Assembly (NCBI RefSeq): GCF_003955715.1
Contig: NZ_CP034463.1
Location: 10,168,001 to 10,232,000, forward strand
Origin: Streptomyces aquilus
GTDB lineage: Bacteria > Actinomycetota > Actinomycetes > Streptomycetales > Streptomycetaceae
Reading direction: 5' to 3'
Length of the DNA stretch: 64,000 nucleotides
Numbering within the stretch: position 1 is the first letter of the stretch; every line of letters starts with the position of its first letter. Both the position numbers and the translations under genes were made by a program. Of this stretch, positions 47,491 to 64,000 are shown piece by piece. The notes beneath the pieces were generated by a model. It saw nothing but the letters and a program-made list of their open reading frames with translations, was not told the DNA's origin and made no database searches.

Positions 47491-48159
47491 TCACCTGTGT
47501 CCCCCCTCGGTCCGGCCGTCCCGCCGAGCCCTGTACACCTCGGCGGCCAGGGGAAGCAGCGACACCAAAACGATCAACGCCACCAGTGGGAGCAGGTAAC
47601 GGTCGACGTTCGGGATCGACGAGCCGAGCGCGTACCCCGCGAGGGTGAGCCCGAGGCTCCACACGAGGCCGCCGACGATCTGCCACAACGTGAACGTGCG
47701 CACCGGAACCCCCAGCGCGCCGGCCATCGGATTGAGCACGGTCCGCACCACCGGCACGAACCGGGCCAGCGTGATCGCCTTCGCATGGCCGTATCGCTCC
47801 AGCAGTTCCTCGGCGCGTTTCGCTCCCTGGTGCAGACGCGGCGAACGGCTACGGGCCAGCAGTGCCCCACCCGCCTTCCGGCCGAGCACATAGCCGCACT
47901 GCGCCCCGGCCAGGGCGCCTGCCGCCGCCGCGACCAGGAGCGGTCCCAGCGACAGGTGCACAGTCGACTCCGCCGAGCCCGTGCACAGCAGACCGGCCGT
48001 GAAGAGCAGCGAGTCGCCCGGCAGGAAGAAGCCGACCAGCAGCCCTGTCTCGGCGAACATCACCACCCCGACGCCCAGCACGCCGAACGCCGCCAGCAGC
48101 GAATGAGCGTCCAGCACGTTCACGGCCAGCTGTGATGCCGGATGGATCGGTGGGGTCAT
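47491..48159 (-). CDS. DedA-family membrane protein
   Basis: A 222-aa protein of the DedA/SNARE-associated family, now known to include polyprenyl-phosphate flippases. Typical parts are ETGLLVGFFLPGDSLLF (acidic E near residue 38), GYVLGRKAGG, and the arginine motif ARFVPVVRTVLNPMAGA. The ATG at 48159 follows GAAAGG. It leads the operon DedA, PAP2, PAP2, regulator, kinase. A BlaI-like palindrome sits in its upstream region. A role in recycling lipid carriers fits the operon. Confidence 0.88.
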   Translation of the reverse strand: MTPPIHPASQLAVNVLDAHSLLAAFGVLGVGVVMFAETGLLVGFFLPGDSLLFTAGLLCTGSAESTVHLSLGPLLVAAAAGALAGAQCGYVLGRKAGGALLARSRSPRLHQGAKRAEELLERYGHAKAITLARFVPVVRTVLNPMAGALGVPVRTFTLWQIVGGLVWSLGLTLAGYALGSSIPNVDRYLLPLVALIVLVSLLPLAAEVYRARRDGRTEGGHR

Positions 48160-48250
48160 GGCAAGGCGGCCTTTCCGGCAGGTGATTCGGTGTCTGCGAT
48201 TCGCCCAACCGCGTGGACGCGGCCATGAGGGGGAACCGCACTCGCCGAGC

Positions 48251-48270
48251 CTACATCTACAAGATGTAGT
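48251..48270. promoter_or_regulatory. BlaI-like operator in divergent promoter
   Basis: CTACATCT-ACA-AGATGTAG is a perfect 8-bp palindrome. Read another way, CTAC-AAGAT-GTAG has the same N5 spacing as the operators at 23901 and 63416. It lies between the DedA operon and the GT-C gene at 48340 and could control both. Confidence 0.62.
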
Positions 48271-48339
48271 AGATGTTCTATGGGTGGCCGGATGTAAACG
48301 GTCACCCAAACGAAACACGAGGCGGAGGAGACGGGCGCC

Positions 48340-50112
48340 ATGGCTGACCCCAGTCGCACAGGAACCGGCACCTGGACTCTGCGGCGTGCGGCCACGAACC
48401 CGACTGCGCCACCCCCGGCCACGGCCCGGCTCTTCCGTGTCCCGGGCGCCGGGCCCCAGCAGTGGCACCGGGGGATGACCCTCGTGGCAACGATCAGCCT
48501 GTTCATCGGGACACGGTCCGCCTGGACCACCGCGATGGCCTCACGCCCGGCCGTCGCCGGCGTCATCTCCGTCTGCTACGCCTCGATCCTCGTCTGCGCC
48601 GCTCTCAGCCTCCTCGTACGGAGCCGTCGCGCGCTGATCAGGGTCGACGCCGTCGTACTGATGACTGCCGTCGCGCTGGTGCTCTGCGGCTACCTGCTCG
48701 ATCACGCGGGCACCGACGAGGGAGTGTTGACCGCCCAGGCGGCGAACGAGATCCTGCACGGCCGTCCCGTCTACGGCCAGCCGTGGCCCTGGCTGTTCGG
48801 CACACCGCGCGTCGGGATCACCAAGACCATGTCCGGCGGTGCCGACTACACCTACGGCTACCCGCCGCTGACCGCGCTGCTCGCGGCCCCGGTGCACGCC
48901 GTCGTCCACTCCACGGCGGCCGCCACCCTGGTCACCACGGCCGCCCTGCTCGTCTCCTCGGTCCTGCTGTGGTTCCTGCTGCCGGCACCCTGGAGGCCGG
49001 CGGCCACCGCGGTCTGCCTCGGCTTCGGCCTCCTGCCCCACTACGCTTACGCCGGCTACCCGGCGATCACGGCTCTCGCCCTGCTCGTCCCCGTGGTGGT
49101 CCGCTGGCCCACAACCGGTGAGGGCGGCCGCCTGGGCTCAGGGGGAGTGCTGCGGGCTGCGTGTCTGGGTGCCGCCTGCGCGGCCCAGCAGCTCGCCTGG
49201 TTCCTGGTCCCGTTCCTGCTGATCGGCCTGTACGCCGTAAGGCGCGGGGAACTCGGTCCGCGGCGGGCTCTGGCGGTGGCCGCCCGCTACACGGCCACCG
49301 CTGCTCTCACCTTCGCGGCGGTCAACGCCTACTTCGCCGTCGAGGACTTCTCCTCCTGGCTGCAAGGCGTACTCCTGCCGCTCGAACAGAAGGCGATCCT
49401 GCACGGCCAGGGCCTGATGGGCATCTCCTACTACTTCACCGACGGCAGCAGCCGCCTTGACTACTACTCCTACGGCAGCCAGCTGCTCCTGCTCGGCTTG
49501 CTCGTCGCCACCCTGCTGTTCGTCCGGCGGCTAGGCCCCGCCCTGACCGTCCTGCCGTGGATCGCGTTCTACCTCGCCATCCGCTCCCAGGACGGCTACT
49601 TCCTGATGATGACGCCCCTGTGGCTGGCGGCCGCCGCCACCGTTCCGGCCGCCGCGTTCGCCACCGCCTGGCAGCCTCGGCTTCCCCACGTCACCGGCCG
49701 TGCGAAGGTCGTCCTGGCGAGTGGGTTGCTCGCTCCCGCCCTGGTGTGCGTCGCGATCGCCGCGGCGAGCCCGCCGCCCCTGCGCATGAGCCTCTCGCCG
49801 CGCTTCGCCACGCGCCACGCGCGCGTGGGTGTCACCGCCATCGATGTGCGGGCCGTCAACACCACCGGTACGGCGCTCACCCCGCACTTCGCGAGCCGTA
49901 CCGGCCAGGGCGCCTCCAACTGGTGGACCATCGCCTCCGGCCCCGCGGTGCTCGCCCCGCACGCCTCCGCCGAGTACCACGTGAAGCCCGCGGGAGGGTT
50001 CCGCGCCCTGCCCGGCGGCCGCGGTCCCGGGACCTACCTCATCGCCGTCACCGGCACCCCGATGACGATCACCACGGCCCACATCCCGTCGGCCCCGGAC
50101 ACCGTTCAATGA
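48340..50112 (+). CDS. GT-C-like membrane glycosyltransferase
   Basis: A 590-aa polytopic membrane protein with about 11-12 helices. After the third helix the loop HAGTDEGVLTAQAANEILHGRPVYG carries D126-E127, the position of the catalytic acid in GT-C/ArnT-like enzymes. The C-terminal 130 residues form an extracytoplasmic beta-rich domain. GGAGGAG lies nine bases before the ATG. It diverges from the DedA operon across a BlaI-like site. The sugar and acceptor are not known. Confidence 0.7.
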   Translation: MADPSRTGTGTWTLRRAATNPTAPPPATARLFRVPGAGPQQWHRGMTLVATISLFIGTRSAWTTAMASRPAVAGVISVCYASILVCAALSLLVRSRRALIRVDAVVLMTAVALVLCGYLLDHAGTDEGVLTAQAANEILHGRPVYGQPWPWLFGTPRVGITKTMSGGADYTYGYPPLTALLAAPVHAVVHSTAAATLVTTAALLVSSVLLWFLLPAPWRPAATAVCLGFGLLPHYAYAGYPAITALALLVPVVVRWPTTGEGGRLGSGGVLRAACLGAACAAQQLAWFLVPFLLIGLYAVRRGELGPRRALAVAARYTATAALTFAAVNAYFAVEDFSSWLQGVLLPLEQKAILHGQGLMGISYYFTDGSSRLDYYSYGSQLLLLGLLVATLLFVRRLGPALTVLPWIAFYLAIRSQDGYFLMMTPLWLAAAATVPAAAFATAWQPRLPHVTGRAKVVLASGLLAPALVCVAIAAASPPPLRMSLSPRFATRHARVGVTAIDVRAVNTTGTALTPHFASRTGQGASNWWTIASGPAVLAPHASAEYHVKPAGGFRALPGGRGPGTYLIAVTGTPMTITTAHIPSAPDTVQ

Positions 50113-50187: not shown

Positions 50188-51591
50188 TCATGCGGGCGCG
50201 GGAGCGGCAGTGCTGTTCAGCCGACCGAGGCCCTGGGTGAAGCGCCGCAGCAGGAGTACGGCCGTGGTGGCGAGGCCGGTGAGGAGGCCCAGCCAGATTC
50301 CCAGGGTGTCCAGGTCGGCCACGAAGCCCAGGAGTGCGGCGGCGGGCAGACCGACGAGCCAGTAGCCGACGAGGGTGACCCGGAAGCCGCCCTTGGTGTC
50401 GTCGAGGCCGCGGAGCAGGCCGACTCCGATGTTCTGCGCGCAGTCGAAGAACTGCAGCAGGGCGGCGACGAGCAGGAGTTGGGCCGCGAGGTCGGTCGCC
50501 TTTCCCTGGCCGCCGTCGAAGAACGGCGCCAGGACCAGACCTGGGACGCTGACGTACACCACCGCCACGACCGCCATAACCGCGGCCGCGCAGGCCAGCG
50601 CGGTGGTCTTCAGGCGCTGAGCGGCGGCCGTGTTGCCGAGGGCGAGGTCCCGGCTGACACCAAGGGACGCCGCATGGGAGAGGCCGACGGCGATCTGGAA
50701 GACGATGTAGACGAGCTGGTTGACAGCGGTGTGCGCGGCCAGCGCGGCTGTGCCGAAGCTACCCACCAGCAGGGCGACCACGGAGAAGAAGCCGGCCTCG
50801 GAACCGTAGGTGGCCGCGATCGGCAAGCCCAGCGCGGTCATGCGGCGCAGGGTGGCCGGGCGGGTCTTCCAGATGGCCAGAGACAGCAGGGGCGCGAGGG
50901 CGGGGTCGCGGCGAGCCGAGACGTACAGGGCCAGGAAGGACAGGGCGTAGACGGAGGTCGTAGCGAGGCCGATACCGGGCAGCCCCAGCTTGGGCAGGCC
51001 CCAGGTGCCGTAGATGAAAACCCAGTTGAGGCCGGCGTTGACGGCGATCGACGCGAGCGTGATGCGCAGCAGGGCCTGCGGTCGGCGCATACCGACGGTG
51101 AACTGCCGTATCGCCTGGAACCACAGGCAGGGCACCAAGCCGGGAGCCATCGCGTACAGGATCGGCCGGGCCGCGTCGACGACGTCCCGGTCCTGCCCGA
51201 GCCACACCACCGCGTGCCCGATCAGCACCATCAGCACCGCTCCGACGAGGCCGGCGAGCGTGGACAGCAGCAGACTCGCCCGGACCAGGTCCTGGATCTC
51301 CTCACGCGCGACCGCGCCGCCCCCACTGCCCTCGTCGCTCTCCGCGCGCGCGTCGGCCGCGGCGACCTGGTTGCCGACCGCGGTGACCAGACCGACGCCC
51401 ATGGTGCGCAGCTGGTTGAAGATGACCATCGCCAGGCCGCCGGCGGCCAGGGCCTCGGTGCCTATCAGGCCCATCATGATGGTGTCGGTGGTGGTGAGCG
51501 CGACCTGGGCGAGCTGGGTGAGGGCCAGCGGGACGGCCAGGGTGGCGAGGGCGCGGCCGTCGGTGAACAGGCGGGCGGGGACGGGGGGCAT
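50188..51591 (-). CDS. MATE-family efflux transporter
   Basis: A 467-aa transporter with 12 helices in two homologous halves. The N-half starts LAVPLALTQLAQVALTTTDTIMMGLIG and the C-half has ALGLPIAATYGSEAGFFSVVALLVG. The start shares one base with the SbnA-like stop (TGATG). In an iron-boxed locus the likely role is export of the metallophore or its intermediate. It ends an apparent five-gene leftward operon. Confidence 0.9.
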   Translation of the reverse strand: MPPVPARLFTDGRALATLAVPLALTQLAQVALTTTDTIMMGLIGTEALAAGGLAMVIFNQLRTMGVGLVTAVGNQVAAADARAESDEGSGGGAVAREEIQDLVRASLLLSTLAGLVGAVLMVLIGHAVVWLGQDRDVVDAARPILYAMAPGLVPCLWFQAIRQFTVGMRRPQALLRITLASIAVNAGLNWVFIYGTWGLPKLGLPGIGLATTSVYALSFLALYVSARRDPALAPLLSLAIWKTRPATLRRMTALGLPIAATYGSEAGFFSVVALLVGSFGTAALAAHTAVNQLVYIVFQIAVGLSHAASLGVSRDLALGNTAAAQRLKTTALACAAAVMAVVAVVYVSVPGLVLAPFFDGGQGKATDLAAQLLLVAALLQFFDCAQNIGVGLLRGLDDTKGGFRVTLVGYWLVGLPAAALLGFVADLDTLGIWLGLLTGLATTAVLLLRRFTQGLGRLNSTAAPAPA

Positions 51592-52646
51592 CAGGTCCGT
51601 TCCTGGGGGGTGTCCGGTGCGGGTCGGCGGAGTTTGATCAGCAACTCCTCGACCTCACATTCCACTTGGGGGTCGCGTAGATCACGGGTCGCCATCCAGT
51701 CGTCGTCGAAGACGGTGTCCATGTACTTCTCCCCGCCGTCGTTGATCAACGCGACCATAGTCGTGCCGGGCGGCAGTGCGGACAGCCTGGCCAGGGCCTC
51801 GTACACGACCCCGCCCGCCGAGCCGCCGAGGAGCAGGCCGGTGCGCCGGGCGACGGCCCGCGCCGTGGCGAACGCCTCGACATCGCCGACCTTCGCGCCC
51901 TCGTCCAGGAGGTCGTAGTCGACCATGGCGCCGATGGTCGCGCCCTCGGGGGTGCCGGTGCCGGACTGGTAGTAGTCGTGGGCGGGCGGCCCGAAGGCGA
52001 TCGAGCCCTTCGGCTCCACCCCGATGATCCGCGCACCGGGAACACGCTCGCGCAGCACGCGCCCGGTGCCGAAGAGGCCGCCGCCGGTTCCGACGGCCCC
52101 GATGAGGATGTCGATACGGCCTTGGAGCGCGGCATGGAGCTCATGGGCCACCGGGTGGTAACCGACGCCGTTGGCGGGGTTGTTGTGCTGCTCGGTGAAG
52201 TAGGCGTTGTCGGACTCGGCGGCCATCTTCTCCGCGAGCTCCTCGCGGGCGGCGGTGGCCAGCTCCTCGTCGCCGTCGGCGGCCACGTAGACGAGTTCGG
52301 CGCCGAGTGCCTTCATCGCGCGCAGTTTGTCGACGGCCGCGTGGTGGTCGACGACGGCGGTGAAGGTGTAGCCGCGCTCCGCGGCGACGACGGCGAGTCC
52401 CAGGCCGGTGTTGCCGGACGTCGACTCGATGATCCGGCCGCCGGGGCGCAGCAGCCCGCGCTCCTCGGCGTCGATCACCATCTGCCGCGCCATCCGGATC
52501 TTCGCGGTGCCGGTGGGGTTGAACTGCTCCAGTTTCAGCAGCAACCGCGCGTCGCCGTCGGTGCGGCACAGCTCGAAAAGCGGGGTGGCACCGATGAGTT
52601 CGGAGACCTGGCGCACGATGGGCGGCCGGTACAGGGGGTCGTCCAT
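51591..52646 (-). CDS. sbnA-like: SbnA-like PLP-dependent synthase (2,3-diaminopropionate pathway)
   Basis: A 351-aa fold-type II PLP enzyme of the cysteine synthase group. In staphyloferrin B synthesis SbnA joins O-phospho-L-serine and L-glutamate to N-(1-amino-1-carboxy-2-ethyl)-glutamate (ACEGA). Here the PLP lysine is K49 in NPTGTAKIRMA, and the phosphate/substrate loop is STSGNTG (75-81). A C-terminal glycine-rich loop GAVGTGGGLFGTG binds the cofactor phosphate. AGGAGC precedes the ATG at 52646, eight bases after the previous stop. Together with the SbnB-like gene the function is strongly suggested, but a plain cysteine synthase activity cannot be fully excluded. Confidence 0.85.
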   Translation of the reverse strand: MDDPLYRPPIVRQVSELIGATPLFELCRTDGDARLLLKLEQFNPTGTAKIRMARQMVIDAEERGLLRPGGRIIESTSGNTGLGLAVVAAERGYTFTAVVDHHAAVDKLRAMKALGAELVYVAADGDEELATAAREELAEKMAAESDNAYFTEQHNNPANGVGYHPVAHELHAALQGRIDILIGAVGTGGGLFGTGRVLRERVPGARIIGVEPKGSIAFGPPAHDYYQSGTGTPEGATIGAMVDYDLLDEGAKVGDVEAFATARAVARRTGLLLGGSAGGVVYEALARLSALPPGTTMVALINDGGEKYMDTVFDDDWMATRDLRDPQVECEVEELLIKLRRPAPDTPQERT

Positions 52647-52654
52647 GAGAGCTC

Positions 52655-54004
52655 CTAGCGGTGACGGCGGTCCAGGCGCCATCGGAATCGGTCGGCGATG
52701 GGTTCGACGACGACCTTGGGCGGTAGCGGCAAGTCGTGGAAGGGCGACTCGTTGGAGTCCATCTGGTAGCCCGCCGTGTTGAGGTAGACCAGCAGGTCAC
52801 CTGTGGCCGGGCGCAGGGGGAAGGGGATCTTGCGCCAGGTCGGCATGTCCGACTCCAGGCAAGTGGCCGCCCCCACGCAGGCCGGATACGGCCCCGCGTC
52901 GGCGATGTCCGCTCGCTCATCCGGCACCAGCACCGGGTCGGGAAGGAACTCGCTGTCGAACCACTGCTCGGACAGGCTCAGGCTACTGCCGTCCACGGTG
53001 AGGATGGCGTACCCGTCGCGCTCCTTGACGCCCTGCACCCGGAACACCGTGAACCCGGCCTGGTCCAGCAGTGCCCTGCCCGGCTCGACGAGCAGCGTGA
53101 CACCGGCGCCGCGCACCAGCGCGGCCAGGTCGGCGTCCTCGCCGGCCGGGGTGGTCGACAGCAGCGCACGCAGCGCGTCGGCTCCGGCGACGGGTGAGTG
53201 GTACGGGTAGAAGCCGCCGAAGGTCTTCGCGGCGTGGAAGTGCTCGGGCCTACGGCTCTCCTCGAAGCGCCGCCAGTCCTCGCCGTCCACGTAGTTCACC
53301 GCGAAGCCGCCGCCGACGCTGATCCGGTCGGCGCGCAGGCCCAGCGCACGGGCGCGGCGGCACAGCCGTACCAACTCTGCGGCTAGATCGGCCCGTTGTT
53401 GGATGTCGTATCCAGACAGGTGGAAGCTGAAGCCCTCCAGCTCCACCGCATCGCCCACGCACCGGTCCAGCGCCGCCGCCATCTCGCCGCAGTCCAGGCC
53501 GAAGCGACTGTGCGGTTGGCCGGGCGGCAGCGCGCGCAGCAGGGCCCTGGCCGTACGGCCGAGTCCGCGTGCCACCTGCTGCAGCCGGTCGAGCTCGTCC
53601 AACGCGTCCACGGCGACCAGCGCGCCCTGCAGCGCGGCCACCCGCAGGAGCTCGTCGGACTTGGCGGGACCGGTCACCACCAGGTCCGCTCCCTGCACTC
53701 CGGTGGCCATCGCCTCGCGCAGCTCCCCGTGGCTCGCCACGTCCACGCCCAGCCCCGCCACGGCCGCTCGTTCGACGAAGACGGCGGCCTTGTTAGCCTT
53801 CTTGGCGTAGTAGACCCGGCCGTCGACCCCGGCCTCCGTGAACGCCTGTCTGAAGGCTGCCGCGTTGGCGTCGAACTGCTCGGGGAACAGCGCGTGGAAG
53901 GGGCCGCCGAGGCCGTGGGCCAGCTCGTGCAGCAGCCGTCCGTCGTCCAGGAGAGCGCGTACCTCGGGTGTGGTGTGGGAGGGGAGCGCCGTGGTCACTT
54001 CCAC
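52655..54004 (-). CDS. SbnH-like PLP-dependent amino acid decarboxylase
   Basis: A 449-aa fold-type III decarboxylase of the diaminopimelate/ornithine/SbnH group. The PLP lysine is K69 in VYYAKKANKA. Further sites are HLSGYD, SVGGGFAVNY, the phosphate-binding EPGRALLDQAG and the catalytic Cys in GAATCLESD. In staphyloferrin B, SbnH decarboxylates a citryl-diaminopropionate intermediate. Here it may act on diaminopropionate, on ACEGA or on a later conjugate. It overlaps the SbnB-like gene by 10 bp. Classical DapA-type diaminopimelate decarboxylation is unlikely given the context. Confidence 0.85.
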   Translation of the reverse strand: MEVTTALPSHTTPEVRALLDDGRLLHELAHGLGGPFHALFPEQFDANAAAFRQAFTEAGVDGRVYYAKKANKAAVFVERAAVAGLGVDVASHGELREAMATGVQGADLVVTGPAKSDELLRVAALQGALVAVDALDELDRLQQVARGLGRTARALLRALPPGQPHSRFGLDCGEMAAALDRCVGDAVELEGFSFHLSGYDIQQRADLAAELVRLCRRARALGLRADRISVGGGFAVNYVDGEDWRRFEESRRPEHFHAAKTFGGFYPYHSPVAGADALRALLSTTPAGEDADLAALVRGAGVTLLVEPGRALLDQAGFTVFRVQGVKERDGYAILTVDGSSLSLSEQWFDSEFLPDPVLVPDERADIADAGPYPACVGAATCLESDMPTWRKIPFPLRPATGDLLVYLNTAGYQMDSNESPFHDLPLPPKVVVEPIADRFRWRLDRRHR

Positions 54005-55008
54005 AGGGGCACCGCCGTACCCAGTCCCTGGGCGAGCGCGAGTTGGGCGAAACGGTGGCCCAGGGCGATGTCGGTGACGACGAGGCCGCTGTTGTAGGCG
54101 AAGATCCGCTGCCTGGCGTCGGTGCGCCCGTCGGTACGTCCGGCCAGTACCTCCGGGAACTCGGCGTCCACCTCCGGCAGTTCGCCGTCCGCGTCGGCCA
54201 TGTCGGTGCCGGTGACGCGCATCTGGGCGGCGCTGGTGGCGATGACGCGGTCCGCCTGGTGCAGGGTCGAGGGGGCGATGCCGTAGCCGACGAGGACGCA
54301 GAGCGCGGCGGGCCCGAGCCAGTCCGCCTCGACGGAGGCGGGGGTGTTGGGGCCGGCCGTGGCCAGCACGATGTCCGCGTCCCGCGCCGCCACCCGCAGG
54401 TCGGTGACGATCTCCAGCTCCCGCTCGGGGAAGTGCGCGTGCAACTGCTCGCGCACCGCCCGGATGCCGTCCGGGTGTGTCCCGAACAGCATCAGCCGCT
54501 CCAGGTCCGGGCGAGTGGTAAGCAGGAACGGCAGAGCGAGCCGGCCTTGGGTGCCGGTGCCGACGACGAGGGCGCTGCGGCTGTCCGGCGCGGCGAGTTC
54601 GCGGGCCAGCAGCGCGGAGACCGCCGGGGTGCGCAGCGCGCCGACCCGGCCGCAGTCCAGCATCGCCACCGGAAGTCCGGTGGCGTCGTCGTAGAGCGTC
54701 AACGTCGTGTAGTAGTGCTGCTTGTCGCGGTCCTCGTGCAGGCCGTACTTGTACGACGTCTTGACCGCGACCACGCCGCGCACGCCGTCGCGGCCCAGCA
54801 TCGCGTAGGCGACGGAGTGGCCGTCCTCTGGCTTGACGGTGAGCTTGCGCGGATTGTCCGACTGACCGTCGGCCAAGGTGCGGTACGCCTGCTCCACCAC
54901 GGCGACGACGTCGGGCAGCGAGATGTCGATGCCGGCGACATCGCTGGTGCTGAGCACGCGCAGGGTCCGGTCGTCCATCTCGCTCTCCGGGAGATCGTTG
55001 TCGGTCAT
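53995..55008 (-). CDS. sbnB-like: SbnB-like ACEGA dehydrogenase / ornithine cyclodeaminase family
   Basis: A 337-aa protein of the ornithine cyclodeaminase/mu-crystallin family. SbnB uses NAD to cleave ACEGA to L-2,3-diaminopropionate and 2-oxoglutarate. Visible features are the active-site Lys region VAVKTSYKYG (K83) and the Rossmann loop VVGTGTQG (148-155), with RTPAVSALLAREL just before it. The stop overlaps the decarboxylase start, and its ATG overlaps the oxygenase stop (ATGA). The pairing with an SbnA-like gene is diagnostic of diaminopropionate supply. Confidence 0.88.
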   Translation of the reverse strand: MTDNDLPESEMDDRTLRVLSTSDVAGIDISLPDVVAVVEQAYRTLADGQSDNPRKLTVKPEDGHSVAYAMLGRDGVRGVVAVKTSYKYGLHEDRDKQHYYTTLTLYDDATGLPVAMLDCGRVGALRTPAVSALLARELAAPDSRSALVVGTGTQGRLALPFLLTTRPDLERLMLFGTHPDGIRAVREQLHAHFPERELEIVTDLRVAARDADIVLATAGPNTPASVEADWLGPAALCVLVGYGIAPSTLHQADRVIATSAAQMRVTGTDMADADGELPEVDAEFPEVLAGRTDGRTDARQRIFAYNSGLVVTDIALGHRFAQLALAQGLGTAVPLWK

Positions 55009-55994
55009 CGGTACGCCTCCACGGCCTGCTGTCCGTAGCCGTGTTCGGACCGCTCGGCGGGCGGCCTCGTGCGGCGGTCCGGGACCCGTACGGAGGAACG
55101 TTTCAGCCAGCGGTCGGTGCCGTCGTAGCGGGCGGTGAAGGGGACCCGGCCGTGCACGACGAGGTCGTTGTCCACGACCAGGACGTCTCCGGGTTCGAGG
55201 CTGACGGCCACGGAGACCCGGGCGAGCTCGTCCTGGAGGCGGGCGTAGGCCGCGCGGTGCTCCTCGGACGCCTGGTCGAGCGGGGTGTAGGCGGGGTCGA
55301 AGCGCAGGGTCGGTCCGTCCGGTGACTCCCAGAGCGTGGGGACCGGCGGTGGGTCCCCGGCGTAGGACTGGGCCTCGGCGTAGGCGTCGTCGGGAAGGAT
55401 CGGCAGGACCGGCCGACTGAGCAACTCGACTTCCTCCTGGGCCAGTTGTACCTGCCGGACGCTCGCGGCCGTGGTGGCGACGGCGTCGTGGTTGCGCAGG
55501 CAGCCCAGGACCAGCAGATGGGCCCGGGCCGGATGGAAGGCGTCCTCGGTGTGCGGGCTGAGCAGCACGCTGCTGCTGGCGCCGGTCTGTTCGTCCTCGT
55601 GGCCGGGCGAGGGCACGATGTTGTGCACGAAGCGGCCGTCCTGCTGGCCCTCCCAGGCCAGGGGGGTGCCCATCACTGTGGAGAGCAGGAGCAGGACGAC
55701 ATCGTACACCGCCCCGGCGTCGCCGGCACTCGACCAGTGGGCCGGGGTGGGGCCGATGGCCGTGTCGTCCAGGGGCAGACCGCGCAGGACGAACAGCCCG
55801 TCCGGGGTATCGACGGGGCGGCAGGCCGTCCGGATCTCGTCACCTAACGAGGCCGCGACGGCGGGAACTCGGGCGAGCAGGTCCGGATGGGTGGCGGTGC
55901 CGTCATGGGCGGTGAGTAGGTCGTGGGCTGCGGTGATGAGTTCCGCTGCGGCATGGGAGTGAAGCGGACGTACAGGCGCAGCTGCCGTCGGCAT
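55005..55994 (-). CDS. Fe(II)/2-oxoglutarate amino-acid hydroxylase (clavaminate synthase/AsnO/VioC-like)
   Basis: A 329-aa TauD-fold dioxygenase. The metal triad is H148-x-E150 in SPHTEDAFHP and H281 in DLVVHGR. The 2-oxoglutarate-binding Arg is in DRWLKRSSVR (about 299). The HxE form, rather than HxD, marks the AsnO/VioC/clavaminate synthase group that hydroxylates free or simple amino acids, often at the beta carbon. I chose the ATG at 55994 (GGACGG upstream). It is the first gene of the leftward iron-boxed operon. A beta-hydroxylated amino acid would add a metal-binding hydroxyl to the product. Confidence 0.83.
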   Translation of the reverse strand: MPTAAAPVRPLHSHAAAELITAAHDLLTAHDGTATHPDLLARVPAVAASLGDEIRTACRPVDTPDGLFVLRGLPLDDTAIGPTPAHWSSAGDAGAVYDVVLLLLSTVMGTPLAWEGQQDGRFVHNIVPSPGHEDEQTGASSSVLLSPHTEDAFHPARAHLLVLGCLRNHDAVATTAASVRQVQLAQEEVELLSRPVLPILPDDAYAEAQSYAGDPPPVPTLWESPDGPTLRFDPAYTPLDQASEEHRAAYARLQDELARVSVAVSLEPGDVLVVDNDLVVHGRVPFTARYDGTDRWLKRSSVRVPDRRTRPPAERSEHGYGQQAVEAYR

Positions 55995-56091
55995 GGTGAA
56001 CCGTCCGTTCCGGTGCGGGTGGGGGCGGCGGGCGGAGGCACGTCCCACCGAGTGGCGGGCGGCCGACGGAAACATAGCCATTGCATAGAAG

Positions 56092-56110
56092 ATAGGCAAG
56101 GTTTACCTAA
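56092..56110. promoter_or_regulatory. iron box (DmdR/IdeR type), biosynthesis side
   Basis: ATAGGCAAGGTTTACCTAA matches 14 of 19 bases of the DmdR/IdeR consensus TTAGGTTAGGCTAACCTAA. It lies about 100 bp upstream of the oxygenase gene at 55994. Confidence 0.75.
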
Positions 56111-56157
56111 GTAGGATCTAGATCACGGGCTATGCCCTCTTGTGTGCGGGCAGTTAT

Positions 56158-56176
56158 TCAGGGTAGGCAAACCTAA
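56158..56176. promoter_or_regulatory. iron box (DmdR/IdeR type), uptake side
   Basis: TCAGGGTAGGCAAACCTAA matches 16 of 19 bases of the same consensus and lies 33 bp before the binding-protein gene at 56210. The pair implies that both divergent operons are switched on by iron shortage. Confidence 0.85.
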
Positions 56177-56209
56177 GCAATTGGCCCGCCCTGTGAAATC
56201 GAGGAACAA

Positions 56210-57763
56210 GTGGACCTGACGAGACGTCAACTGCTGTGGGCGGGTGGCGCCATCGGCGCGACCGCACTGCTGGCCGCCTGCGGAAACGGAGACGACGAGC
56301 CCGCCGCGTCCGCCACCGGCGGCTCCGCCAAACCCCGCAAGGGGGGCACTCTGCGTGTCGGCGCCCTCGGCCGGACCGGGGCCGTCACCCGCGACCCGCA
56401 CGGGACCCAGGCCAACGAGAGCGACTACCTCATCCTCAGCCTCGTATACGACACCCTGACCGTGCCCGGAGCCAAGCCGAACACCGAGCCGCGGCTGGCC
56501 GCGAGCTGGACGCCGTCAGTCGACCTCAAGACGTGGAAGTTCAAGCTGGCCGAGGGGGCGAAGTTCCACGACGGCAAGCCGGTGACCGCCCAGGACGTCG
56601 TCTTCTCCCTCAAGCGGCTGCGCGCGACGCCGTCCGGCGCCTCCCGGCTGCCCGGCATCCAGGCGAAGAACATCACCGCGGAGGGCACCGACACCGTCGT
56701 GCTCGTCTCCGACTACGCCAACGCCGAACTCCCCCTGCTCACCCGCCTGACCACCTTCGTCGTCCCCGACGGCACCACCGACAAGGACATCGCCAACGCG
56801 CCCGGCACCGGCCCGTTCAAGCTCGACTGGTTCCGCTCCGGCAACGCCCGCCTGGTCCGCAACGACGCCTGGTATGCCGGGGACGTGTACCTCGACGCCA
56901 TCGAGGTGAAGATCTTCGAGAGCCCCCAGGCGATGACCAACGCGCTGCTGGCCGGCCAGATCGACCTCGCCTCCAACGCCGGTGCCGTGGCGGCCCGCAC
57001 CGCCGCCTCCCGCAAGGACATCCAGACGGTCCGCCGGCCCAACGACATGGCGATGCCCATCGTCATGCGCACCGCCGACGGTCCGTTCGCCGATCCCAAG
57101 GTGCGCGAGGCGCTGCGCCTCGCGGTCGACCGCAAGGCCATGGTCGAACAGGTACTGTCCGGCTACGGCAGCGTCGCCAACGACATCCTGGGCACCGGCG
57201 ACCCGGCCTACGACAAGAGCATCCCGCAGCGCACCCGCGACCTGGTCAAGGCCAAGGCGCTGCTGAAGGACGCGGGGTTCGACACCTCCAAGACCTACGA
57301 ACTCCTCACCACCGAGGACATATCCGGGCTCGCCGAGTCCGCCACCCTGTTCGCCACCCAGGTCCGCGAGGCCGGTGTCAAGGTGAAGGTCGTCAAGCAG
57401 GATTCGGCGGTCTTCTGGGACAAGACCTGGCTCAAGGGCGACCTGTACACGACCTACTGGGGCACCAACGACTCGGTGGTCTTCTTCGCCAGCAAGACGA
57501 TGGTCTCCGACAGCGGCCAGAACGAGGCGGGCTGGGAGGACACCGCGTTTGACGCCGCCTACCAGAAGGCCACCGGCACAGCCGACGACGCCCGGCGCAC
57601 GCAGCTGCTCAAGCAGTTGCAGCAGATCGAGTACGACAGCTCCGGCTATCTGCTGTGGGGCATGGCGGACGGCATCGACCTCGCTGGGGCCACCGTCCGC
57701 GGGCTGCCGACGCTGCCCGGCTACGGCCGGGTCCAGCTCCAAACGGCATGGCTGGCCCGTTGA
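56210..57763 (+). CDS. family 5 (oligopeptide/nickel/opine-type) substrate-binding lipoprotein
   Basis: A 517-aa lipoprotein. The signal has a twin Arg (TRRQLL) and a lipobox ending LAAC (C24), so Tat export is possible. The mature protein has the family-5 fold (LAASWTPSVDLKTWKFKLAEGAKFHDGKPVTAQDVVFSLKR and later AVDRKAMVEQVLSGYGSVAND). Relatives bind peptides, nickel chelates or opine metallophores such as staphylopine (CntA). Siderophore receptors in Streptomyces usually belong to the FecB/FhuD class, so this class points to a small amino-acid-like chelator. The GTG follows GAGGAA. Confidence 0.88.
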   Translation: MDLTRRQLLWAGGAIGATALLAACGNGDDEPAASATGGSAKPRKGGTLRVGALGRTGAVTRDPHGTQANESDYLILSLVYDTLTVPGAKPNTEPRLAASWTPSVDLKTWKFKLAEGAKFHDGKPVTAQDVVFSLKRLRATPSGASRLPGIQAKNITAEGTDTVVLVSDYANAELPLLTRLTTFVVPDGTTDKDIANAPGTGPFKLDWFRSGNARLVRNDAWYAGDVYLDAIEVKIFESPQAMTNALLAGQIDLASNAGAVAARTAASRKDIQTVRRPNDMAMPIVMRTADGPFADPKVREALRLAVDRKAMVEQVLSGYGSVANDILGTGDPAYDKSIPQRTRDLVKAKALLKDAGFDTSKTYELLTTEDISGLAESATLFATQVREAGVKVKVVKQDSAVFWDKTWLKGDLYTTYWGTNDSVVFFASKTMVSDSGQNEAGWEDTAFDAAYQKATGTADDARRTQLLKQLQQIEYDSSGYLLWGMADGIDLAGATVRGLPTLPGYGRVQLQTAWLAR

Positions 57764-58761
57764 CCGACCAGATCACCCCACCGGCCGGTCCCCTGCGCAC
57801 GCTCGCGGGGGACCGGCCAGTCGTCCGTGTCCTCATCCGTGCCGGTCTCGTCCTGGTCAAGCGGACCGTCCTGCTGGCCGTTCTGCTCGCGCTGGTCTTC
57901 ACCGGCGTCGAACTGCTCCCGGGCGACGCCGCCCACGCCACCTCCGAGCGCGGCGAGACCGCCGTGGACCTCGCCCAGCGACGCCACACGCTCGGCCTGG
58001 ACCGGCCCGTCCTGGAACGCTTCTGGGACTGGATGTCCGGCCTGCCCACCGGCGACCTCGGCACCTCGGCGCACGGCGAGAGCGTCACCGACCTCGTCTC
58101 CACGGCCTTCCCCAACACCCTGGTTCTGGGCGCCACTGCACTCCTCCTCACCGCCGTGCTGTCGATCGCCCTGGGCTGCTGGGCTGCACTCCGACCGGGG
58201 GGCCGTCTCGACCAGGCCGTCACCGGCACCTCCACGGCTGTCTTCGCGATCCCCGAGTTCGTGGTGGCCGTCGGCCTGGTTCTGGTGTTCTCCCTGTGGA
58301 CCGGCTGGCTGCCCGCCGTCACACTCGCCGACGCCGACGGAACCCCCTCCTCCTGGACCATGCTGGTCCTGCCCACCCTCGCCCTGACCGTCCCGCAGGC
58401 CGGCTGGAACACCCGGATCGTGCGCGCCGCCCTCGACGACGAGGCCCGCGCTCCGCACGTCGAGACCGCTGTCCTGGACGGTGTCCCGCCGCTCCGCGTC
58501 CTCACCCACCACGTCCTGCCGGGCGCCCTGCCGACCATCGCGACGGGACTCGCCACCTCCTCCGGCATCCTGCTCGGCGGCGCGGTCGTGGTCGAGACCA
58601 TCTTCAACTACCCAGGAATCGGTGCGGTGTTGTCGTCGGCGGTGGCCGACCGGGACACCCCGGTGATCGCCGGGGTGACGGCTCTCGCGGGCGCAGTCAT
58701 CAGCTGCGTGCTGCTGCTGGCGGACCTGGTGCGTGACGTGGTGACGGGAGGCCGGAGATGA
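57748..58761 (+). CDS. DppB-type ABC permease
   Basis: A 337-aa permease with six helices. The segment ETAVLDGVPPLRVLTHHVLPGALP is the EAA-type coupling loop. The ATG at 57748 lies inside the end of the binding-protein gene (16-bp overlap); a TTG at 57760 is an alternative. The gene couples to the next permease by ATGA. Confidence 0.88.
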   Translation: MAGPLTDQITPPAGPLRTLAGDRPVVRVLIRAGLVLVKRTVLLAVLLALVFTGVELLPGDAAHATSERGETAVDLAQRRHTLGLDRPVLERFWDWMSGLPTGDLGTSAHGESVTDLVSTAFPNTLVLGATALLLTAVLSIALGCWAALRPGGRLDQAVTGTSTAVFAIPEFVVAVGLVLVFSLWTGWLPAVTLADADGTPSSWTMLVLPTLALTVPQAGWNTRIVRAALDDEARAPHVETAVLDGVPPLRVLTHHVLPGALPTIATGLATSSGILLGGAVVVETIFNYPGIGAVLSSAVADRDTPVIAGVTALAGAVISCVLLLADLVRDVVTGGRR

Positions 58762-59606
58762 CGATCGTGTCCGCGATGAAGGCGGCCAGGTCCCCTCGTA
58801 TCAAGAGCTCGCCGCTTCTTCGTGTGCTGCCCGCCCTCCTGCTCGTCGCGCTCGCGCTGATCGGCCCCTGGATCGCCCCGCACGCGGTGGACGAGCCCGT
58901 TGCCGTCCCGTTTGCCGGTCCCGGAGGTGAGGCACGCCTCGGCGGCGACCAGCTGGGCCGGGACGTGCTGAGCCGACTGCTCGCGGGCGGGCGTGAACTG
59001 GTGCTGTCCGCCCTGCTGATCGCCGTCGTGGTGACCGCTCTCGCCGCCGTCCTGGGCGTGATCGGCGCGCTGCGCCCGCTGGTCGGCCGGATCGTCGAGC
59101 GCGTCGCCGACGTACTGATCCTGCTGCCGGCGGTGCTCGGCATCATGCTCGTCTCGCTGTCCTGGCCCGGCGGCGGCCGACTCGCGATCATCGTCGCCGC
59201 GACCGCGCTGGGCCTGCCGTACGCGGTGCGGCTCGCGGCAGGCGCGGCGGCACCCGTGGCGGCCTCCGGATACGTGGAGGCGGCGGCTGCCGGCGGTGAA
59301 CGTCTCTGGGTGCTCGTCGTGCGCGAGGTGCTGCCCAACATGCGGGCCACACTCCTGGCCCTGTTCGGTCTGCGCTTCGTCGAGGCGGTCTACGTCGTCG
59401 CCACCGCCGGCTTCCTCCAGGTCGGCCCCCAACCCCCCGCCGCCGACTGGGCGTTGATGATCCGGGAGAACTCCTCGGGGCTGCTGCTCAACCCCTGGGC
59501 CGTGGTGGCCCCCAGCCTCGCGGTCGGCCTGCTCGCCCTGTGCGTCAACCTCGCGGCCTCCGCCCTCGCACCCCAGACCGGCCGGAAGGCGGTAACCGTC
59601 CTGTGA
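58758..59606 (+). CDS. DppC-type ABC permease
   Basis: A 282-aa permease with six helices. It has the DppC-like N-terminal loop (GGDQLGRDVLSRLLAGGR) and a coupling loop YVEAAAAGGERLWVLVVREVLPNM. The ATG overlaps the DppB-like stop and the stop overlaps the ATPase GTG, so the importer genes are tightly coupled. Confidence 0.9.
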   Translation: MTIVSAMKAARSPRIKSSPLLRVLPALLLVALALIGPWIAPHAVDEPVAVPFAGPGGEARLGGDQLGRDVLSRLLAGGRELVLSALLIAVVVTALAAVLGVIGALRPLVGRIVERVADVLILLPAVLGIMLVSLSWPGGGRLAIIVAATALGLPYAVRLAAGAAAPVAASGYVEAAAAGGERLWVLVVREVLPNMRATLLALFGLRFVEAVYVVATAGFLQVGPQPPAADWALMIRENSSGLLLNPWAVVAPSLAVGLLALCVNLAASALAPQTGRKAVTVL

Positions 59607-61174
59607 GCCACGCCCGCCAGCAGTACGTCCAGCCAGCGGCGGCGCCCGACGAGGCCCCCGCGGTCCGGATCACCGGCCTCGCCGTTGCCGCGCCTGACGG
59701 GCACCTGCTCGTGAACGACGCCTCGCTGACCCTCCGTCCGGGCCGCCTCACTGCCCTCACCGGCCCCTCGGGCTCCGGCAAGACCACCCTGCTGCGGGCC
59801 GTCACCGGCCTGCTCCCGCCCGGCACCACCCGCAGCGCCGGTCAGGTCGAGGTACTGGGCCAGGACGTCTTCACCCTTTCCGAACGGGAGCTCCGGGCCC
59901 TTCGCGCCACCCGCCTCGCCTACGTCGGCCAGGACCCCGGCTCCGCCCTCAACCCGCGGATGCGCGTGCGGTCCCTCATCCGCGAACTCGCAGCCGACCG
60001 CGGGCCGGACGCGGTTGCCGCGCTCCTCAACGAGGTACGCCTTCCCGACCCGGGCGTCCTCGCCGCCCGTCGGCCCGGCGCGCTCTCCGGCGGCCAGCAG
60101 CGCCGCGTCGCCCTCGCCCGAGCCCTGGCCCGACACCCGCGGATCCTCCTGCTGGACGAGCCCACGGCCGGCCTGGATCCAGCACTCCGTGACGAGATAG
60201 CCGAGCTGCTGCGCCACCTGGCCCGCGACCACCGGCTGGCCATCGCCTTCGCTTGCCACGACCCGGACGTCGTCGAGCGGTTCGCCGACGAGACGGTCGA
60301 CCTGGGCACGTCCCCGCTCCGGCCGCCCACACCTTCCCTCGCGCAGACAGTGGCGCGACCGGGCACAGAGGCGCGGAAGGCAGTCACAGCACGGCCGGAC
60401 ACACCGGGCGGCGCCGACGACACCCCCGTACTCGAGGCACACGGCCTCCACGTCTCCTTCCGGGGCACACCGGCACTCACCGGGGTCGAATTCACACTCC
60501 TGCCAGGTGGGTCTGCCGGTGTCGTCGGTGTCTCTGGCTCCGGCAAAACCACCCTGGTACGCACCGTGGCAGGACTTCAGCGCCCGGATTCCGGCACCAT
60601 CCACCTGACCGGAACGACCCTGAGCACCGGACTACGCGGCCGTAACCGCGAGCAGCGACGCGCACTCCAGCTCATCACCCAGAACCCGCTCGGCGCCCTG
60701 AACCCGAGCCGCACCGTCGGCGCCACGATCGGCCGGCCCCTGCGCCTGCACCGACGCTGCACCGCCGCAGAAGTACCCGAAAGGGTGGCGGGCCTGCTCG
60801 AACAGGTGGGTCTGCCGACCGCGTTCGCTACGCGCTACCCGCACGAGCTGTCCGGCGGACAGCGCCAGCGGGTCGCCATCGCGCGAGCCGTCGCCGCCGA
60901 TCCGCACGTCCTGATCTGCGACGAGATCACCTCCGCGCTCGACGCGGACACCGGCCGGGCCATCATGGACCTGTTGATCGGGCTGCGCGTGGAGCACGGC
61001 ATGGCCCTCGTCGTCATCAGCCACGATCTGTCCATCATCGCCGGCTACACAGAGACCGTCACCGTGCTGGAAGCCGGCCGCGTCGTGGAGTCGGGGCGGA
61101 CGGCCGAGGTGTTCGCCGCCCCCGCACATGAGGCGACCAGGGCACTGCTTGGCGCCTCCGCCATGGTCGGCTGA
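59603..61174 (+). CDS. fused DppD-DppF-type double ABC ATPase
   Basis: A 523-aa protein with two complete ATPase domains in one chain. Domain 1 has Walker A GPSGSGKTT (about residue 56), signature LSGGQQRR and Walker B ILLLDEPTAGLD. Domain 2 has Walker A GVSGSGKTT (about 315), signature LSGGQRQRVAIA and Walker B LICDEITSALD, where Pro of the usual DEP is Ile. A Pro/Thr-rich linker (about 240-290) joins them. Dpp/Nik importers usually have two separate ATPases, so this is a fusion. It ends the iron-boxed uptake operon. Confidence 0.9.
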   Translation: MSHARQQYVQPAAAPDEAPAVRITGLAVAAPDGHLLVNDASLTLRPGRLTALTGPSGSGKTTLLRAVTGLLPPGTTRSAGQVEVLGQDVFTLSERELRALRATRLAYVGQDPGSALNPRMRVRSLIRELAADRGPDAVAALLNEVRLPDPGVLAARRPGALSGGQQRRVALARALARHPRILLLDEPTAGLDPALRDEIAELLRHLARDHRLAIAFACHDPDVVERFADETVDLGTSPLRPPTPSLAQTVARPGTEARKAVTARPDTPGGADDTPVLEAHGLHVSFRGTPALTGVEFTLLPGGSAGVVGVSGSGKTTLVRTVAGLQRPDSGTIHLTGTTLSTGLRGRNREQRRALQLITQNPLGALNPSRTVGATIGRPLRLHRRCTAAEVPERVAGLLEQVGLPTAFATRYPHELSGGQRQRVAIARAVAADPHVLICDEITSALDADTGRAIMDLLIGLRVEHGMALVVISHDLSIIAGYTETVTVLEAGRVVESGRTAEVFAAPAHEATRALLGASAMVG

Positions 61175-61224: not shown

Positions 61225-61956
61225 TCATGCGGTCCAGCCGTGGTCACGCAGAGGGCCGACGTCGTAACCCCGCGCCTGACAGGTGTCCAGAATCCGGGGG
61301 AGCGCCCCCAGCGCCGAGCGCCAGGCGCCGGGGGCGGAGGTGCAGTCGGAGTCGTGGAGCAGGATCGTGCCGCCGCCGTCCAGGTCGGCGGTGACGGTGC
61401 GGTGGACGGAGTTCGGGGTGGCGCGTGCCGTCCAGTCCTCTCCCCAACAGGTCCACAGCACCGGTGTCAGGTCGAGGCGGCGGGCCGCGAGGTGGGCCGC
61501 GGTGGACATGACGCCGTACGGGGGCCGGAAGAGCGTGGGCTGCCGTCCGGTGATCGCGGCGACGGTGTCGCGGGCCCGGCGGAAGTCGTCATAGGTGGCG
61601 CGCGGGCCGCGCAGCAGCAGGGGGCGGTGCAGCCAGCCGTGGACGGCGATCTCGTGTCCGGCCGCCGCGATCTCGCGGACCAGGCCGGGGGAGCGGTGTG
61701 CCTCGCCGCCGAGCAGGAAGAACGTGGCGTGCACTCCGCGCCCGGCGAGCAGCCGTAGAAAGTGCGGAGTGGAGCGGGGGTCGGGGCCGTCGTCGAAGGT
61801 CAGGGCGATGTGGTTCATGCGGCCGCGGCCCGAGAGGCGGGGCATGAGGCGGTTGCGCAGCGGTCCGAAGGTGGAGACGACGGGTGCGGCGTGGGCGGCG
61901 GCGAGGACGGGTACGGCGGCGAGGGCGGCCGTGCGCAGTGTCGGGGCGATGTTCAC
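61225..61956 (-). CDS. NodB-type polysaccharide deacetylase
   Basis: A 243-aa enzyme of carbohydrate esterase family 4. A hydrophobic N-terminal segment (about residues 8-28) anchors or exports it. Motifs are LTFDDGPDP (catalytic Asp and metal Asp), HGWLHRPLLL (usual HxxxH, here His-Gly-Trp-Leu-His) and RPPYG; a late LLHDSD is motif 5. The GTG overlaps the glycosyltransferase stop by 4 bp (GTGA), so both act in one pathway. The substrate may be a cell-wall or lipid-linked amino sugar. Confidence 0.87.
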   Translation of the reverse strand: MNIAPTLRTAALAAVPVLAAAHAAPVVSTFGPLRNRLMPRLSGRGRMNHIALTFDDGPDPRSTPHFLRLLAGRGVHATFFLLGGEAHRSPGLVREIAAAGHEIAVHGWLHRPLLLRGPRATYDDFRRARDTVAAITGRQPTLFRPPYGVMSTAAHLAARRLDLTPVLWTCWGEDWTARATPNSVHRTVTADLDGGGTILLHDSDCTSAPGAWRSALGALPRILDTCQARGYDVGPLRDHGWTA

Positions 61957-63338
61957 GAGTGGTCGTCCTGCGACGGGGAGGTGTGCGCTGGTGGGAGGCC
62001 GTCCGGGTCGAGGCGGTGGCTGATGGCGTGGATGATGTCGGGACCGTCGGTCGTCGCCACCCCGGTGGCGACGGCGCCGGCGCACACGACGGACGCGAGG
62101 ACGGCCGTGGCGGCGAGCCGCCGCGTCGTACGGTGCCGGTGTGCTACCGGACCAGAAACCCGGTCGGGGAGTCCGGACCGGTGCACGCGCGCGATCTCGG
62201 CCGTCGGGCAGCCGTCGGGGGACTGAGCGAACAGGGCGAATCCGGTTGCCCTTTGCCGACGTCCGAGCGGGCCGTCGATCAGCTCGCACAGCACTGCCTT
62301 GAGGTCGGCCGGGTCGCGTATCCAGACGGCTGCGCCGGCTTCGTCCAGGGCGGCGGCGTTGGTCAGCCCGTGCCCGGGTATGCAGCGGTAACTGGCCACG
62401 GGCAGGCCGCAGGCGAATGCCTCCAGCGAGGTGAGCCCGCCGGCGTTCTGGACGAGGACGTCGGCGGCGTGCATCAGAGAGGGCATGTCGTCGACCCAGC
62501 CGAAGGCATGGTCGATGCCGTCGGCGCGCAGCTGCTCGGCCAGGGCCTCGTTGCGGCCGCAGACGACGACCGGGACGGCGGCGCCGGAGTCACGCAGCTC
62601 CCGGGCCACCGTACGGACCGGGCCCACCCCCCAGGACCCGGCGACCAGCAGAGCCAGCGGGGTGTGGGACGGCAGCCCGAACCTCTCCCGGGCGCGGCCA
62701 CGCCCCCGTACGTCGCAGGGCCGGAAACGGGGGTCCGTGACCGGCCCGCGCACGCGCACGTCCCGGGCCCCGGCCGTGCGCGCCTGGGCGGCGGGCACGG
62801 CGTGAGCGGCGAGGTGGACGTCCACACCCGGCGCGACCCACAGCGGATGCACCGAGAAGTCGGTCAGATAGGTGAGGACCGGCACGGTCAGTCGACCGTC
62901 CAGGCGCAGGTTGCCCAGGACTCGGCTGGCCCCGGGGTAGGTGGAGACGACGGCGTCGGTGCCCGGCGGGAGGGCGCGCAGTACCCGGTCCTGTGCCGTG
63001 CGCAGCAGCGCCCGCGCAACCGGCCCGCCGCCCCCAGTGCGCTCGGTGCTGGAGTAGATCCGCTGGTAGGCCCAGGGGGCTCGCACCAGCATCCGGTGAT
63101 AGCCCTCCTGGACGGCGCGGCCCAGGTGGGCGGGGAGCAGGTCTAGCAGGTCGAGGCGGTCCACGGTGTAGCCCTGCGCGGCGAGACGGCGGGCGAGCTC
63201 GGCGGCGGCACCGTCGTGACCGGCTCCCACGCTCGCGGAGACGATCGCGAACCGTCCCGCGCCGGGCGTCGCGGCGGACTGCGGAGGAGGGGCGCCCGTG
63301 AGTGTGTGTCTGGGCGCCGTGCTCACGCGGTGGGGCAT
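61953..63338 (-). CDS. MGDG-synthase-like glycosyltransferase (GT28 type)
   Basis: A 461-aa protein. The first 370 residues resemble monogalactosyl/diacylglycerol glucosyltransferases: SASVGAGHDGAAAELARRL near residue 35, LTYLTDFSVHPLW, a donor site with LVAGSWGVGPVRTVARELR, and FGWVDDMPSLMHAADVLVQN followed by GGLTSLEAFACGLPV. Uniquely, a C-terminal extension carries a membrane helix (about 400-425) and a short extracytoplasmic tail. GGAGG lies six bases before the ATG. Two BlaI-type palindromes lie upstream. It probably glycosylates a membrane lipid. Confidence 0.82.
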   Translation of the reverse strand: MPHRVSTAPRHTLTGAPPPQSAATPGAGRFAIVSASVGAGHDGAAAELARRLAAQGYTVDRLDLLDLLPAHLGRAVQEGYHRMLVRAPWAYQRIYSSTERTGGGGPVARALLRTAQDRVLRALPPGTDAVVSTYPGASRVLGNLRLDGRLTVPVLTYLTDFSVHPLWVAPGVDVHLAAHAVPAAQARTAGARDVRVRGPVTDPRFRPCDVRGRGRARERFGLPSHTPLALLVAGSWGVGPVRTVARELRDSGAAVPVVVCGRNEALAEQLRADGIDHAFGWVDDMPSLMHAADVLVQNAGGLTSLEAFACGLPVASYRCIPGHGLTNAAALDEAGAAVWIRDPADLKAVLCELIDGPLGRRQRATGFALFAQSPDGCPTAEIARVHRSGLPDRVSGPVAHRHRTTRRLAATAVLASVVCAGAVATGVATTDGPDIIHAISHRLDPDGLPPAHTSPSQDDHS

Positions 63339-63373
63339 GGGTTTCCTCCGCAGGGGACGGGAGCGACGGAACT

Positions 63374-63386
63374 CTACGAGTTGTAG
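63374..63386. promoter_or_regulatory. BlaI-type half-perfect operator
   Basis: CTAC-GAGTT-GTAG followed by TAG. It lies 36 bp upstream of the glycosyltransferase ATG and has the same N5 spacing as the stronger site next to blaI. Confidence 0.6.
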
Positions 63387-63415
63387 TAGTTCGCGGTTCG
63401 AAGCCCGGAGCATAC

Positions 63416-63434
63416 CTCCTACAATTAGTAGGAG
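63416..63434. promoter_or_regulatory. BlaI-type operator beside the regulator gene
   Basis: CTCCTAC-AATTA-GTAGGAG has perfect 7-bp arms and lies 45 bp before the blaI-like GTG. It should be the autoregulatory site of the repressor and would also serve the divergent glycosyltransferase operon. Confidence 0.78.
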
Positions 63435-63479
63435 ATGGCCGGGTAGTCTGTGCGGACGGTCGGCGAACGGAGGCATCCG

Positions 63480-63905: not shown

Positions 63906-63909
63906 AGCC

Positions 63910-64000
63910 GTGCTGATCAGCGTCTACGTCCCCTTCGCCGTCACGGCCGTGCTCGCCGTGCTCGCGCCCCGCCTGGCGCACGTGCTGCCCCCGCACCGCG
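63910..64000 (+). CDS. M56-family (BlaR1-like) membrane peptidase, partial
   Basis: The GTG at 63910 follows GGAGGGAGGG and starts a hydrophobic first helix (LISVYVPFAVTAVLAVLAPRLA). The gene runs off the window. Actinobacterial blaI-like genes are regularly followed by an M56 zinc protease gene, so this assignment rests on start, helix and context; the HExxH motif is outside the window. Confidence 0.68.
   Translation, partial: MLISVYVPFAVTAVLAVLAPRLAHVLPPHR

Follow-up and report, generated by a model that had tools for sequence, protein, structure and literature searches.

A probable cluster for the metallophore ethylenediaminesuccinic acid hydroxyarginine in Streptomyces aquilus

A divergent nine-gene locus with two iron boxes

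The stretch of DNA analysed here (the window, 64,000 nucleotides) comprises positions 10,168,001–10,232,000 of the single-contig, 10,393,987-base genome of Streptomyces aquilus. Positions 50188–61174 of the window, 10,987 bp in total, are filled by nine genes in two divergent arms separated by a gap of 215 bp, and this locus probably serves the biosynthesis, export and re-uptake of the metallophore ethylenediaminesuccinic acid hydroxyarginine (EDHA). An earlier reading of the bare sequence (the original prediction) had placed genes of the families described below at these positions, and all nine are confirmed by open reading frame positions, Pfam matches and model scores.

The minus-strand arm contains four enzymes and an exporter. 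Next to the gap lies a VioC/GntD-type Fe(II)/2-oxoglutarate oxygenase (55005–55994; 329 residues from the ATG at 55994), which scores under the cut-off with both the GntD and the VioC model and whose closest solved relative is the L-arginine β-hydroxylase 4m23 (E 2.3e-52). It is followed outward by an SbnB-like NAD(P)-dependent enzyme of the ornithine-cyclodeaminase fold (53995–55008; 337 residues; PF02423, E 1.3e-28), a pyridoxal phosphate (PLP)-dependent decarboxylase of the LysA/ornithine-decarboxylase fold (52655–54004; 449 residues; PF02784, E 2.8e-27), an SbnA-like PLP enzyme of the cysteine-synthase fold (51591–52682; 363 residues; PF00291 (PALP), E 1.4e-62) and a multidrug and toxic compound extrusion (MATE) exporter (50188–51591; 467 residues; PF01554, E 4.7e-32), which scores 185.6 bits with TIGR00797, over the cut-off of 147.4. 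The plus-strand arm encodes an importer. It starts with a family-5 solute-binding lipoprotein (56210–57763; 517 residues; PF00496 (SBP_bac_5), E 2.4e-76) and continues outward with a DppB/NikB-type permease (57655–58761; PF00528 (BPD_transp_1), E 2.3e-34), a DppC/NikC-type permease (58758–59606; PF00528, E 1e-16) and a double ATP-binding cassette (ABC) ATPase (59540–61174; 544 residues; PF00005 in two stretches, E 8.9e-61). The start codons of the first permease, whose reading frame overlaps the binding-protein gene, and of the ATPase, whose frame is also an overlapping one, are uncertain.

Two DmdR/IdeR boxes had been predicted between the arms, and a search with TTAGGTTAGGCTAACCTAA, an IdeR/DmdR consensus, bears this out. 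The only two positions in the 64 kb of the window with five or fewer mismatches, 56092–56110 on the side of the enzyme arm (five mismatches) and 56158–56176 on the side of the importer arm (three), both fall within the 215-bp gap, and the chance expectation for the 56158 box is 0.00 (100 shuffles, at most three mismatches). Across the genome, 17 strand-hits at 12 sites were found at up to three mismatches, and none with a reversed control pattern. A Zur-type pattern, TGAAAATNATTTTCA, gave no match at up to three mismatches in the whole window. The gap could be cut out of 72 of the 80 related loci described below: at least one box (five or fewer mismatches) is present in 71 of these 72 orthologous gaps and at least two in 62, against a background of 9 positions per 1,419,988 bases in the remainder of the same loci, the box-bearing loci being akin to one another, so that the recurrences are not independent events. 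The 56092 box is weak taken alone; its position is kept in orthologous gaps, and the recurrence of boxes in these gaps makes it a credible predicted site. The boxes, as predicted and recurrent elements, would fit control of the locus by an iron repressor.

Residues whose functional roles are assigned from their families are well kept in the four enzymes. K61 and the TSGNTG motif of the SbnA-like enzyme are conserved in 76/76 aligned orthologues, as are H148, E150 and H281 of the oxygenase (76/76), and the decarboxylase retains K68/K69, EPGR, C382 and D386 in all 80 orthologues, with E384 replaced by D in nine. The SbnB-like protein retains G150 and G152 in 78/78, K83 in 76/78 and K87 in 74/78. 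Both lysines are changed to arginine in two loci (L067, L070), and K87 alone in two others (L081, L086).

Relatives and match to published EDHA clusters

A decarboxylase scan of named genomes yielded 296 relatives, the best 80 of which were kept as loci. The gene set of the original prediction recurs as such in other genomes: all nine genes are present in 62 of the 80 loci, with order and strands the same in all 62. The EDHA cluster was reportedly described by Spohn et al. in 2018, a study known here through the papers that cite it. One passage places an 11-kb EDHA cluster, scab_5231 to scab_5311, in S. scabiei 87-22, credits it to Spohn et al. 2018 and states that the authors' own antiSMASH analysis had overlooked it (PMC8914351). 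A passage of another paper gives Streptomyces sp. MA5143a as the EDHA reference, with genes AesA–AesD, credits further species to Spohn and terms EDHA iron responsive and zwitterionic (PMC10702961). In excerpts from further papers, EDHA is entered as MIBiG BGC0002567 and counted in 1,450 windows across 24 genera (PMC11888242), aminopolycarboxylic acid metallophores are covered by a rule of antiSMASH 7 (PMC10320115), and an EDHA cluster at 100% similarity is reported from another Streptomyces (PMC11705897).

Both reference strains are among the 80 loci. All nine genes are collinear with those of Streptomyces scabiei 87.22 (L007; 70–90% protein identity) and of Streptomyces sp. MA5143a (L013; 62–89%), the binding protein being 85–86% identical to its counterparts in the two strains and the oxygenase 80% and 82%, respectively. 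The 10,987 bp and nine genes found here agree with the reported 11 kb and with scab_5231–scab_5311. The locus is thus like the EDHA clusters of these strains in its nine genes, their order and orientation, its length of about 11 kb and the boxes between its arms, and among the genes compared only sequence divergence sets it apart; the SbnA-like, SbnB-like, decarboxylase and arginine-hydroxylase-like genes all co-occur in it. We conclude, with a probability of about 0.88, that it is a cluster by which a Streptomyces-type actinomycete makes, exports and recovers EDHA, presumably under an iron repressor. Judged by its genes, the locus belongs to a kind already described and nothing in its arrangement is unrecognised. 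That the arrangement is an unrecognised one is not supported in view of the published loci; the broader claim of the original prediction, of an iron-boxed, synthetase-free metallophore locus, with a small aminopolycarboxylate as a plausible product and an EDDS (ethylenediaminedisuccinic acid) type of compound as precedent, is supported.

The remaining 18 loci depart from the full set in several ways. Ten incomplete ones (L015, L019, L020, L025, L027, L032, L041, L043, L061 and L065) reach a contig end, to which we attribute their missing genes. The binding protein and permeases are absent from L062, L072, L075, L084 and L085, and in L069 the permeases are absent and the binding-protein match is a 19% piece only. 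In four of these (L062, L069, L072 and L075) the enzymes and the MATE protein are present and a full family-5 importer is missing from the fetched stretch; another importer may serve there. A MATE orthologue was found in 74/80 loci, and L081 and L086 are among those in which it has no match. In L084 (Trinickia dinghuensis) and L085 (Paraburkholderia lacunae), the SbnA/SbnB/decarboxylase/MATE set is accompanied by a hydroxylase of 31–32% identity and the family-5 importer is absent; directly upstream of the set in L084, a TonB-dependent siderophore receptor scores 351.7 bits against a cut-off of 223.5. Three genomes carry two diverged nine-gene copies each, namely Streptomyces sp. DSM 15324 (L008/L030), Streptomyces sp. 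SAJ15 (L038/L054) and S. cinnamoneus JCM 4633 (L033/L071).

In a decarboxylase search of 100 genomes, 26 had any match, and an orthologue of at least 64% identity was found in 11 of the 60 other genomes of the same genus, one of them split in two pieces. An SbnB-like match (E ≤ 1e-25) was found in 12 of 394 class-wide genomes, the own genome included, and in 3 of 137 genera. Among the four loci of other genera, L122, L123 and L124 contain the four enzymes and the MATE protein, with the binding protein and permeases added in L124 alone. The fourth, L121 (7739–12679), has an SbnA–SbnB–decarboxylase–MATE set with no hydroxylase and an SbnA-like protein of only 35% identity. At up to five mismatches, one box was found in L122, one past the MATE gene in L123, two in L124 and none in L121. 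In this single case (n = 1), hydroxylase and iron box are missing jointly, as they would be were iron control coupled to the hydroxyarginine arm. The L121 set could be EDDS-like; a Zur-motif search in it gave no match at up to three mismatches.

Several points weigh against the assignment to EDHA. The equation of L007 with scab_5231–5311 is made by strain, size and gene number, the locus tags not being visible at the L007 coordinates, and EDHA is assigned by way of the reference strains in citing papers. For Streptomyces aquilus, EDHA production and the iron response are predictions from the genes. As to iron control, L077 carries the genes with no box at up to five mismatches in its gap, and the sole box of L123 lies at 14982, beyond the end of the MATE match and not before the hydroxylase. 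Finally, the oxygenase scores higher with the GntD model (enduracididine; 263.9 bits) than with VioC (224.9), both under the cut-off.

A proposed synthetase-free route and its alternatives

The name EDHA implies an ethylenediamine bridge, a succinyl arm and a hydroxyarginine arm, for which the four enzymes could account without a synthetase. The VioC-like oxygenase, a probable arginine β-hydroxylase, would hydroxylate arginine to give the hydroxyarginine arm. The SbnA-like PLP enzyme, a probable C–N bond former, would attach C3 of an activated serine to the amine of aspartate or hydroxyarginine as one arm, removal of the serine-derived carboxylate by the decarboxylase would leave N-CH2-CH2-NH2, i.e., the ethylenediamine bridge, and the SbnB-like enzyme would reductively couple the resulting amine to a 2-oxo acid of the other arm. 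Either arm could be attached first, and an ATP-dependent synthetase would not be needed. The product would leave through the MATE protein, a probable EDHA exporter, and its iron complex would be retrieved by the family-5 binding protein and the ABC importer. Most likely, the SbnA- and SbnB-like enzymes join the pieces themselves rather than supply free 2,3-diaminopropionate. The condensing enzyme regarded as absent in the original prediction would then be at hand, the PALP and cyclodeaminase-fold proteins being the likely joining enzymes.

The original prediction had the SbnA/SbnB pair yield free 2,3-diaminopropionate via N-(1-amino-1-carboxyl-2-ethyl)-glutamic acid (ACEGA), with the feeding of an assembly line elsewhere as one of its alternatives. 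The SbnA and SbnB folds are indeed common to the window enzymes and to the SbnA/SbnB/SbnH module of staphyloferrin B, but the window proteins fall far under the equivalog cut-offs, with 227.5 against 349.95 bits for SbnA and 105.8 against 326.9 for SbnB. The SbnA-like protein scores slightly higher with a cystathionine β-synthase model (230.9 bits, also under cut-off). The locus is outscored for the SbnA model at three genomic positions elsewhere, and no place in the genome passes the SbnA or SbnB cut-off. Synthetases do exist elsewhere. PF00668, the condensation domain of non-ribosomal peptide synthetases (NRPS), has 24 matches in the genome (at 1.59, 4.08, 5.02–5.06, 9.76 and 9.88 Mb), and PF04183, the NRPS-independent siderophore (NIS) synthetase family, also known as the IucA/IucC family, has six (at 4.19, 7.60, 8.16 and 9.12 Mb); neither has a match in the window, as predicted. 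Three iron boxes (1.581, 1.598 and 1.602 Mb) lie around the condensation domains at 1.585–1.592 Mb, and two (4.185 and 4.187 Mb) are near the NIS match at 4.19 Mb. The co-regulated synthetase that would speak against the original prediction is thus partly borne out, in that other synthetases lie near iron boxes and may share iron control; nothing was found that ties them to the locus. Equipped with both exporter and importer, the gene set recurs as one independent unit in 62 of the 80 loci and corresponds to the EDHA clusters, and a precursor supply for a distant synthetase, lowered by these scores rather than discarded, is very improbable. Staphyloferrin-B-like precursor supply was rejected on the missed cut-offs. 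The idea that the genes feed a distant NRPS or NIS system with iron boxes was rejected for lack of any link to the systems of this type that the genome contains.

Doubt about the second arm starts from the oxygenase, whose family acts on several substrates and whose GntD score is slightly above that for VioC; the oxygenases of two Burkholderiales loci share just 31–32% identity with that of the window. An EDHA-like metallophore with another arm, e.g., another hydroxylated basic amino acid, has nevertheless very little probability indeed, since the S. scabiei and MA5143a oxygenases, at the identities given above, rank the two models in the same way and the same substrate is likely. That the locus serves instead to import opine- or peptide-like nutrients, with enzymes for their catabolism, is less probable still: the binding protein and permeases broadly resemble Dpp/Opp/Nik transporters, but the recurrent iron boxes, the dedicated exporter, the hydroxylase and the orthology to EDHA loci point to a metallophore system. 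Opine metallophores of the staphylopine type also have a family-5 binding protein and a Dpp/Opp-type importer, and the window binding protein reaches 84.1 bits with the staphylopine CntA model, against a cut-off of 800. Families of the nicotianamine-synthase or opine-dehydrogenase type were not seen in a Pfam scan of ten locus proteins, and an opine metallophore was rejected for want of such biosynthetic families.

A close parallel of another kind is the cluster for the zincophore [S,S]-EDDS in Amycolatopsis japonicum, reportedly described by Spohn et al. in 2016. The EDDS route is described, in a passage of PMC4993170, as unlike NRPS or NIS pathways. It is a synthetase-free aminopolycarboxylate route, as would be that of the window locus. 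The two differ in that EDDS is under Zur, whereas the window has iron boxes and no Zur-type match, and in that EDDS has two succinyl arms, whereas the window locus carries a hydroxylase.

A Zur-boxed locus in the same genome and implications

A search of the own genome with the binding protein yielded a paralogue of 36% identity, which is separated by 3.3 kb from an SbnA-like gene (1.025 Mb). The locus that contains both (G000:C1:1021414-1034339; L129:6415-19340) lies about 9.2 Mb from the window locus. It encodes an ATP-grasp/LAL ligase, a DUF364 protein, the SbnA-like enzyme, an enolase-superfamily protein (MR_MLE), an MFS transporter and a methyltransferase, together with an importer made up of the family-5 binding protein, permeases and a double ATPase. 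The ATP-grasp gene is preceded, at a distance of about 110 bp, by the Zur-like box TGAAAATGATTATCG (L129 position 7999). The Zur motif of S. coelicolor is given as tGaNNatSatNNtCa in a passage of PMC5472717, and TGAAAATGATTATCG departs from it at the last letter only.

ATP-grasp orthologues of at least 71% identity are present in 69 of 295 same-genus genomes, the own one included; in G054 the match is in two pieces, of 75 and 67%. Of the 68 others, 20 were read, chosen across the identity range. All ten genes, starting with ATP-grasp and ending with the ATPase, are found in conserved order in 18 of these 20, L136 and L149 having neither methyltransferase nor importer, and a Zur-like box with three or fewer mismatches lies upstream in 19, the one in L149 having four. 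As a background, no such box occurs at up to four mismatches in 268,875 positions. Literature searches turned up no description of this locus among the papers listed, which does not prove that none exists. Tentatively, and with rather less than an even chance of being right, we suggest that SbnA-like enzymes serve two routes of metal scavenging in this genome, the iron-boxed EDHA set and the Zur-boxed locus, of which the latter would make a dipeptide-like zincophore.

The window locus itself is flanked by a PAP2 gene (46161–47339) and a VTT-domain gene (47491–48468) on one side and by a polysaccharide deacetylase gene (61225–62289) on the other. The flanking reading frames 48340–50112, 61884–63146 and 62590–63996 have no Pfam match, and nothing in the 86 loci searched matches the 48340–50112 protein at E 1e-8.

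Synthetase-free aminopolycarboxylate metallophores form a described class, and the absence of a condensing enzyme is thus to be expected in a cluster of this kind. The variants of the gene set, namely the hydroxylase-less L121 and the Burkholderiales loci L084 and L085 with their distant hydroxylase, could reveal which enzyme attaches which arm.

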